64,000 nucleotides of DNA from the NCBI GenBank assembly GCA_003054495.1, contig CP028514.1, positions 1,403,501 to 1,467,500 on the forward strand. The letters run 5' to 3'. The notes under the pieces were generated by a model, which made no database searches, was not told where the DNA came from, and worked only from the letters and a program-made list of their open reading frames with translations. The stretch comes from Carboxydocella thermautotrophica (GTDB lineage: Bacteria > Bacillota > GCA-003054495 > Carboxydocellales > Carboxydocellaceae). A program made the position numbers and the translations under genes. Shown in pieces: positions 55,984 to 59,972 of this stretch; the stretch's first letter is position 1, and each line of letters starts with the position of its first letter.

Positions 55984-57690
55984 ATGAAATTTATTTATGG
56001 TAATACAGATGGTATTCGCAAACATCTTTTAGACAAACTCTCTCAGATAAGAGGATATCAATTTGATAAACTATTACCATATGAAATGTATCAGCAACTA
56101 TTATCAATATCTGAACAGCTAAACAGGGAAATTGCTATAGGTATTAATAAAAAAGGCAAAGTGGAGTTTATCAGTATAGGTAATAGCCAGCAAGTACCAG
56201 TACCTCGAAACTCTTATTTAATCATCCATACCCATCCACAAGCAACCAGTGAATTAAGTGAGCTGGATCTTTCTTTAATCCATTCCGGTCAAACCCAGGC
56301 AATCATGGCTATTGGGTCTTTTTCAGATACAATTCAAATCGCAAAAATCGATGACAGCCATGGGCTTACTGTTGAAAAATATACTTTGCAGGACTTAGCC
56401 CAGAAGAGCCTGGATATCATCGGGGTAGAAGGTTCAAGGAAAAACAAAATAGAGGATATTGACTTAACAGAAAAAGCATTATTGATAGCTTTTGATGAAG
56501 AGGGTGCCCTTGAACTGGAGGAATTATGCAAAACAGCCGGTATTCAGGTTCTGGATTGTGAAATTATAAAGCTAAGAAAGATTCATACCGGGCTCTTTGT
56601 TGGCAAAGGTAAAATCGTTGAAATAAAGAATAAGTCCCAGGTATTACAAGCAAATCTTCTGGTCTTTGATCACGAGCTCTCACCAGTTCAATTACGAAAT
56701 ATCGAGGAAATTACCGGGCAGAAAGTAGTAGACCGTACTACTTTGATTCTTGACATTTTTGCACAAAGGGCCCAGTCACGAGAGGGCAAACTTCAGGTTG
56801 AACTGGCACAACTTAAACATCTGTTACCTCGTCTAACCGGTCAGGGTAATAACCTTTCCCGCTTAGGCGGAGGCGTAGGTACCCGGGGCCCTGGTGAAAC
56901 TAAACTGGAACAAGATAGGCGAAAAATTAAAAAGAAAATAGTATTATTAACACAGGAGCTGGCCGAAATACAAAAACACCGTCAAAATCAACACAAACAG
57001 AGGGCAACTAATAATATTCCGCACATATGCTTAACCGGTTATACCAATGCCGGAAAATCGACTTTACTTAATCTGCTAGCCAATGCCAATGTCCTGGCTG
57101 AGGACAAATTGTTTGCCACCCTTGATACAACGACGCGCCGTCTCCAACTCCCTTCGGGTAGATGGGCTGTACTAACCGACACAGTAGGTTTTATTCGCAA
57201 TTTACCTCCAGGCCTGATTGCAGCTTTTCGTGCTACATTGGAAGAGCATTTGCGTTCCGATTTGATTTTACATGTAGTAGATGCCAGTAATCCATTTGCC
57301 AGACAACATATCAAGGTCGTTGAAGCTATTATTAAAGATTTAAATTTAGAAACAATTAAACAATTAATAGTTTTTAATAAAATAGACTTACTTAACGACC
57401 TGGATAGATTAAACATATTACTTCACGATCTTCCGTCAGATTATGTTTGCATTTCAGCCTTGAAAAAAACCGGTATTGATGAGTTATTAATCAAAATAGA
57501 TACAATTTTAAACACAGAAAATGTTTACAAAGACACCCTTTGGTTTTTCCCTTATAACCAGGCCTCCCTTATTAGTTTAATTAGAAAGCATGGTCATATC
57601 GTTGAGGAGAAATACACAGATTCAGGTATATTAATTAAGGGCAGAGTGGAAAATAGATATAGTGCTCAACTGGAAATTTATGAGAAATAG
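55984..57690 (+). CDS. hflX: Ribosome-associated GTPase HflX with an N-terminal JAMM-like domain
   Basis: A 568-residue HflX, about 150 longer than the Bacillus form. From about residue 165 it has the HflX N-domain ('DEEGALELEELCKTAG', 'VGKGKIVEIK'), the glycine-rich 'GQGNNLSRLGGGVGTRGPGETKLE' (in part), and a G domain from about 345: G1 'GYTNAGKST', 'FATLDTT', 'DTVGFIRNLP', 'NKIDLL'. It splits or rescues stalled ribosomes. The extra N-terminus (1-150) contains H-x-H-x7-S-x2-D at His82, His84, Ser92, Asp95 ('IIHTHPQATSELSELDL'), the JAMM/MPN+ zinc pattern, with Glu49 as a possible fourth residue. The HflX call is firm; the JAMM reading rests on the motif and predicted strands only. Confidence 0.94.
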   Translation: MKFIYGNTDGIRKHLLDKLSQIRGYQFDKLLPYEMYQQLLSISEQLNREIAIGINKKGKVEFISIGNSQQVPVPRNSYLIIHTHPQATSELSELDLSLIHSGQTQAIMAIGSFSDTIQIAKIDDSHGLTVEKYTLQDLAQKSLDIIGVEGSRKNKIEDIDLTEKALLIAFDEEGALELEELCKTAGIQVLDCEIIKLRKIHTGLFVGKGKIVEIKNKSQVLQANLLVFDHELSPVQLRNIEEITGQKVVDRTTLILDIFAQRAQSREGKLQVELAQLKHLLPRLTGQGNNLSRLGGGVGTRGPGETKLEQDRRKIKKKIVLLTQELAEIQKHRQNQHKQRATNNIPHICLTGYTNAGKSTLLNLLANANVLAEDKLFATLDTTTRRLQLPSGRWAVLTDTVGFIRNLPPGLIAAFRATLEEHLRSDLILHVVDASNPFARQHIKVVEAIIKDLNLETIKQLIVFNKIDLLNDLDRLNILLHDLPSDYVCISALKKTGIDELLIKIDTILNTENVYKDTLWFFPYNQASLISLIRKHGHIVEEKYTDSGILIKGRVENRYSAQLEIYEK

Positions 57691-59018: not shown

Positions 59019-59972
59019 GTGGATAAGTATGTAACCTCTAAGAGTAAAATATTAATAATTGATGATGATAAATTAATAGTAGCCATGGTGCAGGATCGCC
59101 TAACAAAAGAAGGCTTTCAGGTGACTGCTGCAATGGATAGTGTTTCTGGTCTGGCAGCGGTATATCAAGAAGCACCGGATCTGATTTTGTTAGATGTAAT
59201 TCTTCCAGGCGGTAAAACAGGTGTGGAAATGTGCCGTATCCTCAGAAATGATACGCGGACAAGCCACGTTCCTATCATTATGATGACTTCCCGCAAGCAA
59301 ACACAGGACGTGGTAGCTGGGTTGGAAGCTGGTGCTGATGATTATGTAACCAAACCCTTCGATCTGGATGAACTCGTAGCCAGAATAAAAACCCATTTGC
59401 GCCGGGCCAAGCAGGAAAAATCTTTTAATCCCCTAACAGGCCTGCCCGGAAATATTATGATAGAAGAAGAAATTAAACGGCGAATAAATGACAAGAGCCG
59501 GAAATTCGCGGTAATGTATTTAGATCTGGATAACTTCAAAGCTTATAATGATGTCTATGGTTTCCTTAAAGGTGATGAAGTAATCAAACTTCTAGCTCAT
59601 ATCTTAACCCAGTGTGTAAGAAACCTGGGTAATGTCGATGATTTTATCGGTCACATCGGGGGCGATGATTTTATCGCCATCACAACCCCTGACAAGGTAG
59701 ATGAAATATGTCAGCAAATTATCACCCGTTTTGATGCTACCGTGCCTTTATTATACAATGCCGATGACCGAAAAAGAGGTTACATTGTTACAAAAGATAG
59801 ACAGGGTAAAGAGTGCAAGTTTAGTCTGGTTTCCGTTTCTATTGCCGTAGTAAGCAATGAACATCGCAATATTGAAAACCACTGGCAGGTCTCCGAAATT
59901 GCTTCTGAGCTAAAAAAATACGCTAAGTCACAAGAAGGCTCTGTCTATGTAAAAGATCGCCGTACCAGATAG
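59019..59972 (+). CDS. Response regulator with REC and GGDEF domains
   Basis: A 317-residue protein. REC domain, residues about 9-125: 'LIIDDDKLIV', phospho-Asp in 'LILLDVILPG', 'MMTSRK' and 'YVTKPFD'. A GGDEF domain starts at 'NPLTGLPGN' (about 140), with 'LDLDNFKAYND' and the active-site variant 'GGDDF' (Gly214-), which belongs to the allowed GG[DE][DE]F set. There is no RxxD inhibitory site just before it. A segment of about 30 residues ('NADDRKRGYIVTKDRQ') lies inside the domain. It may make cyclic di-GMP, though activity is uncertain. No histidine kinase is adjacent. The start is GTG 59019 behind TAGGGGGT; a TATAAT at 58996-59001 is a possible -10. Confidence 0.88.
   Translation: MDKYVTSKSKILIIDDDKLIVAMVQDRLTKEGFQVTAAMDSVSGLAAVYQEAPDLILLDVILPGGKTGVEMCRILRNDTRTSHVPIIMMTSRKQTQDVVAGLEAGADDYVTKPFDLDELVARIKTHLRRAKQEKSFNPLTGLPGNIMIEEEIKRRINDKSRKFAVMYLDLDNFKAYNDVYGFLKGDEVIKLLAHILTQCVRNLGNVDDFIGHIGGDDFIAITTPDKVDEICQQIITRFDATVPLLYNADDRKRGYIVTKDRQGKECKFSLVSVSIAVVSNEHRNIENHWQVSEIASELKKYAKSQEGSVYVKDRRTR

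Follow-up and report, generated by a model that had tools for sequence, protein, structure and literature searches.

A predicted JAMM/MPN+ domain precedes the GTPase HflX in Carboxydocella thermautotrophica and in a widespread subfamily of HflX proteins

HflX acts in the rescue of stalled ribosomes and in macrolide-lincosamide resistance, and the JAMM proteases are the family that removes ubiquitin in human cells. MPN domains may also be purely structural, as in eIF3f/h and Rpn8, and RadC, to our knowledge, is still without a defined place of action. The JAMM motif has been defined as EXnHS/THX7SXXD (PMC300881). It has been described that the N-terminal extension (NTE) of mycobacterial HflX contacts uL16, H38 and H69-71 and assists in splitting (PMC12493154); like the extension reported here it is an N-terminal addition to HflX, but with 39-58 residues it is too short for a JAMM domain. 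The same 2025 review mentions that some HflX proteins of Clostridium and Paenibacillus are extended at the N terminus, giving neither the identity of these extensions nor any peptidase term, and treats the role of extra N-terminal HflX segments as an open question (PMC12493154). HflXr of Listeria is likewise a Firmicute HflX homologue that acts by ribosome splitting (PMC6310831), and it is not known to carry a protease domain. A 2006 survey of prokaryotic JAB domains leaves HflX unmentioned (PMC1779556), Pfam and NCBIfam leave the JAMM extension of HflX unannotated, and a collection of 5.39 million open-access papers yielded no description of an HflX with a JAMM, JAB or MPN domain (subscription papers, InterPro and CDD lay outside the scope of this search). 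The preliminary description of this DNA had thought that the combination might be new; it is apparently undescribed, but it is not unique, since it belongs to a widespread subfamily present in 72 of 304 HflX-bearing genomes of the sampled phylum and in Fusobacterium.

The hflX gene of C. thermautotrophica lies in the window, by which we mean the whole stretch of 64,000 nucleotides that was analysed. Its product is organised as follows:

55984-57690, + strand: HflX open reading frame, 568 aa, ATG start
55984..56388, + strand: predicted JAMM/MPN+ domain at the N terminus of HflX, residues 1-135 (or up to 140), from the AF2 model, Foldseek and profile matches
56389..56499, + strand: linker from the JAMM domain to the HflX core, residues 136-172, no family match
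56509..56763, + strand: HflX N-terminal domain, PF13167 (GTP-bdg_N), residues 176-260, Pfam E 6.5e-28
56767..57003, + strand: HflX helical middle region, PF16360 (GTP-bdg_M), residues 262-340, E 1.2e-30
57025..57381, + strand: GTPase domain, PF01926, residues 348-466, E 2e-19
57442..57675, + strand: HflX C-terminal region, residues 487-564, weak PF19275 match under the cut-off (E 0.036)

Membership in HflX is indicated by the order of PF13167, PF16360 and PF01926 together with the HflX equivalog model TIGR03156, which scored 441.9 bits on residues 173-507 against a cut-off of 216.75, and inspection of the translation showed the G motifs GYTNAGKS, DTVG and NKID to be intact. Since TIGR03156 begins at residue 173 and PF13167 at residue 176, approximately 170 residues stand ahead of the HflX core, which bears out the earlier claim of some 150 extra residues before the HflX domain. 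The linker, of about 37 residues, varies in length and sequence among homologues. This is the single HflX copy of the genome (2.74 Mb, 99.6% complete). In the HflX-core tree its core is divergent, with an end branch of 1.33 versus a median of 0.18, and yet the metal-site residues are kept.

These residues were already named in the preliminary description, which had read H-x-H-x7-S-x2-D at His82, His84, Ser92 and Asp95 and proposed Glu49 as catalytic base, exactly as found in the sequence:

56128-56130, + strand: Glu49, predicted general acid/base, counterpart of AfJAMM E22; Glu in 58/58 intact homologues
56146..56157, + strand: hairpin NKKG at residues 55-58, N/D-R-x-G in the family consensus, which copies without the metal site conserve too
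56227..56268, + strand: H82-T-H84-P-QATSEL-S92-EL-D95, with predicted metal ligands H82, H84 and D95 and predicted oxyanion-stabilising Ser92, from sequence and conservation
56227-56229, + strand: H82
56233-56235, + strand: H84
56257-56259, + strand: S92
56266-56268, + strand: D95

E49, H82-T-H84, a spacer of seven residues, S92, two residues and D95 together make up the complete JAMM motif EXnHS/THX7SXXD. In shuffles of residues 1-150, H-x-H-x7-S-x2-D arose by chance with a probability of 7e-4. When homologous extensions were aligned without selection on the motif, all five residues, as well as the Pro after the second His, were kept in 12 of 13, at only 20-35% identity to C. thermautotrophica. 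Of the 72 copies from a wider survey of the phylum 71 were read, and 58 of these have an intact motif; E49 was invariant among these 58 though Glu had played no part in their selection; in alignment A2, the rows of which were picked on the motif, the invariance of His, Ser and Asp follows by construction and is not counted as evidence. Loss of these residues from other HflX extensions had been named beforehand as grounds for giving up the idea, but most extensions keep them, and only three family-level lineages contain exceptions. The C. thermautotrophica copy has peculiarities of its own: K56 where the family has R56, Ile80 where 90% of intact copies have a Cys ahead of HTHP, and, at residues 71-81 (56194-56226), the absence of about 11 residues of a basic loop, RRxxxRLSGxRC, that precedes HTHP in most homologues.

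Used as a single sequence, residues 1-159 of C. thermautotrophica HflX gave no match in Pfam, NCBIfam or PDB, with no PF04002 hit over the cut-off and none to PF14464 at the curated cut-off of 25 bits, under which the listed HflX copies also stay (22-23.3 bits). The relationship emerges at the level of the family; a profile search against JAB/MPN and RadC had been proposed in the preliminary description. Among PDB sequences, AMSH-like JAMM deubiquitinases were the best matches of the family profile (E 0.005 with 13 sequences and 4e-4 with 56), with AfJAMM lower in the list of the 13-sequence profile and Prp8 in that of the 56-sequence profile. Single members matched Prok-JAB PF14464 weakly in 7 of 13 cases (best E 8e-5) and RadC PF04002 in 5 of 13 (best E 0.0028). 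In hhalign the extension profile matched RadC with E 2.7e-6 and a probability of 89%, versus about 0.03-0.06 (0.027-0.055) for unrelated HflX-domain controls; masking residues 80-96 brought the E-value to 0.045, at control level, with the register unchanged. Therefore, most of the RadC signal comes from the motif block itself. RadC (PF04002) resembles the extension in its HxHPx6SxxD motif, as the best profile-profile match and through structure 2qlc (see below), but it is a separate protein, mostly of 215-265 aa, which is present in 60 of 61 relatives, among them C. thermautotrophica, where it lies elsewhere in the genome.

Structure prediction led to the same families. The AF2 model of the extension is of moderate confidence (pLDDT 77.8, pTM 0.74), and a second one was built for a homologue, L150; both rest on two-row alignments, that of L150 being the same two sequences in reversed order. 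The order of elements is helix-helix-strand-strand-strand-helix-strand-strand-strand, in which E49 opens strand 49-54, H82 and H84 close strand 79-84 and D95 lies inside helix 93-100; in AfJAMM, E22, H67/H69 and D80 are placed likewise at a strand start, a strand end and in the next helix (PMC300881). The best Foldseek match was PfJAMM1, the Pyrococcus JAMM1 (E 9.8e-4, TM 0.49/0.53), which appeared among the top matches both free and as its SAMP2 complex, together with AMSH; the Caldiarchaeum Rpn11 homologue (rank 10) and RadC (rank 12) matched more weakly. The L150 model retrieved Salinibacter SRU_2040, RadC (2qlc), BubCD, PfJAMM1, sst2, ER-membrane-complex MPN chains, BRCC36, AMSH and Rpn8/Rpn11. 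TM-scores were low, about 0.3-0.5, as expected of rough models, and most structural matches had a sequence identity of at most about 15%, yet both models lead to the same fold. A fold unlike MPN had been named as the outcome that would speak against the proposal; the predicted fold is MPN-like, with JAMM and RadC structures dominating the confident matches of the two models. Taken together, sequence comparison and modelling support a predicted domain with JAMM/MPN+ fold and motif in residues 1 to about 135. Its likeness to AfJAMM, PfJAMM1, AMSH and Rpn11 lies in the motif, the order of strands and helices, the placement of Glu, His and Asp, and the Foldseek and profile matches; it differs from them in being fused to a ribosome-splitting GTPase, with no Ubl (ubiquitin-like) partner seen nearby.

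The extension was found in 13 of 61 relatives, all in frames of 537-702 aa. When 398 genomes of the phylum were searched with a profile built from these 13 homologues, 72 gave strong matches, all of them on HflX-sized frames except in genome G303, where the frame is ended by the contig edge, and no complete protein other than HflX had a strong match in the 398 genomes. Weak matches alone were obtained in 14 further genomes, on RadC-sized frames of 230-297 aa, of which at least two coincide with RadC matches. HflX itself was present in 304 of the 398 genomes (and in all 14 control genomes of the HflX search), so that about 24% of HflX-bearing genomes (72/304) carry the fusion and 232 have HflX without the extension. 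Outside the phylum, the Fusobacterium animalis SB029 protein WP_016339937.1, annotated 'GTPase HflX' and without a JAB domain in Pfam, has the JAMM-HflX architecture with an intact motif, and F. vincentii SB055 has this architecture as well. No match at E 1e-6 was obtained in 148 sampled genomes from the phylum of a Chitinophaga MAG, a sample with no positive control inside that phylum, and the extension was not found in the phage collection. A full-length scan of a collection of genome contigs detected only HflX with no extension recognised, because its peptide patterns were too exact; some of these frames run off the 5' end of the contig. On the HflX-core tree, four changes account for where the extension is present and where it is absent; therefore, the fusion probably arose long ago and was mostly inherited vertically.

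We favour the reading that the extension is a JAMM domain of the metal-dependent peptidase or isopeptidase type, fused to an otherwise normal HflX that serves as its carrier to the 50S subunit, and give it a probability of roughly 0.6. By analogy with JAMM enzymes, H82, H84 and D95 would hold one metal ion, and E49 together with a metal-bound water would hydrolyse a peptide or isopeptide bond. HflX-GTP would dock on the intersubunit face of 50S, splitting stalled or idle 70S ribosomes, and, if the mycobacterial NTE is a guide, docking would put the JAMM domain near uL16/H38 and the disturbed H69-H71, and there it could cut a protein or adduct bound to the ribosome. The N-R-x-G hairpin would probably serve a second function, in docking or regulation. 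In these bacteria, ribosome rescue may then be linked to the cutting of a protein bond. More tentatively, HflX in many Firmicutes and Fusobacteria could be a ribosome-delivered metalloprotease that couples the splitting of ribosomes, stalled or blocked by a drug, to cleavage at the 50S interface of a covalent protein substrate, the candidates being, just as tentatively, a nascent chain, a hibernation factor, a ribosomal-protein tail or a conjugated modifier. If so, it would be a bacterial parallel to deconjugation by the proteasome lid and AMSH. If the JAMM site is active in about a quarter of the HflX proteins of the phylum and in those of Fusobacterium, rescue of ribosomes in these bacteria would include a chemical step described in none of the papers found, and a bacterial JAMM domain would gain a defined place of action. 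The five site residues make the catalytic reading testable by point mutants.

The motif is degenerate in 13 of the 71 copies (L021, L085-L087, L091 and L092-L099), which belong to three family codes, f41, f84 and f92, and the loss is mostly en bloc. In f41 the HTHP region is replaced and shortened (IYLTF...) and the Glu is mostly gone too; in f84, HTH has become FTR or FTK and the Glu is retained; f92 has one degenerate copy. L021 has lost Glu, both His and Ser, while the Asp column is filled across a gap in the MAFFT alignment. In a quick HflX-core tree, f41 and f84 are set apart and each stands closer to intact copies; support is moderate (SH-aLRT 80-82), and this picture fits independent loss of the metal site in the two families. 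Since the domain was retained after loss of the site, it probably also helps in docking or regulation, with the N-R-x-G hairpin at the centre of this role; R56 occurs in 97% of the intact copies and 100% of the degenerate ones, and G58 in 100% of both. These lineages with an MPN- extension, which lacks the metal site, offer a natural means of telling docking apart from catalysis. They also favour an alternative that we consider less likely, namely that the MPN fold is genuine and the metal site structural or regulatory, docking HflX on 50S or sensing metal or redox state and thereby tuning GTPase activity or splitting. The shared hairpin points the same way, as do the Cys at position 80 and the rRNA-disordering mycobacterial NTE, which touches uL16, H38 and H69-71 and promotes splitting (PMC12493154). 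However, C. thermautotrophica has no such Cys, and E49 and S92, which in JAMM enzymes serve catalysis and not metal ligation (PMC300881), are invariant together with the ligands in intact copies, where a purely structural site would not need them.

Improbable in our judgement is the proposal of an isopeptidase that deconjugates a bacterial ubiquitin-like protein and clears this modifier from ribosomes, as HvJAMM1 and PfJAMM1 act on SAMPs. It has in its favour that the closest solved fold is PfJAMM1, including its SAMP2 complex, and that the nearest PDB sequences are AMSH-type deubiquitinases, but RadC is equally similar to the domain and we know of no Ubl partner for it. The neighbours of hflX in C. 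thermautotrophica are moreover ordinary (MiaA, Hfq, a SpoVK-like AAA protein, methionine gamma-lyase, a response regulator with GGDEF and DUF456), and a Pfam search of them found no ubiquitin-like, E1 or E2 gene beside hflX in the window, whereas bacterial JAB-Ubl operons are usually linked (PMC1779556). In 20 other JAMM-HflX loci, screened for the genes of the C. thermautotrophica window only, hflX is followed by a methionine gamma-lyase gene in 11 and preceded by a SpoVK-like AAA gene in 8; hfq, miaA and a mutL-like gene are frequent companions. Compared with HflXr of Listeria, the JAMM form differs in that many genomes place it in a conserved neighbourhood of AAA, hflX and lyase genes. A special operon marked by JAMM-HflX was considered and rejected, because the hfq-AAA-hflX-lyase order is common to several genomes and, in Bacillus subtilis, also surrounds an HflX without the JAMM domain. 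The response regulator with GGDEF (59019-59972) lies near hflX and the lyase gene, and it is downstream of both in loci L184 and L185 too.

Very doubtful is self-processing, in which the JAMM domain would cut the HflX linker or itself and free a short HflX under stress: the linker is variable, and related HflX proteins function without any extension in the 232 genomes mentioned above, but a conserved cleavage site is not evident in the linker alignment and the JAMM enzymes known to us act in trans. A chance motif in an unrelated extension, which the failure of the C. thermautotrophica extension alone to match any family might suggest, is refuted by conservation over dozens of families, by the profile matches and by JAMM folds in two models.

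Some minor observations were made along the way. Scans of viral collections gave one homologue, L150, on an IMG/VR contig, and a later scan gave none; this contig carries a full bacterial-type hflX with the JAMM domain, adjoining an apparent polysaccharide deacetylase gene, and is probably host DNA misclassified as viral. L152 (NZ_CP084075.1), a record of 2.1 Mb entered as a plasmid of Fusobacterium vincentii, probably represents a chromosome. Family code f51, a different lineage of the phylum, has HflX open frames of 740-830 aa in L172, L176, L178 and L181, and those of L172 and L176 run on, judged by reading, into DusB-like (tRNA-dihydrouridine synthase) sequence, which suggests a putative HflX-Dus fusion in this lineage.
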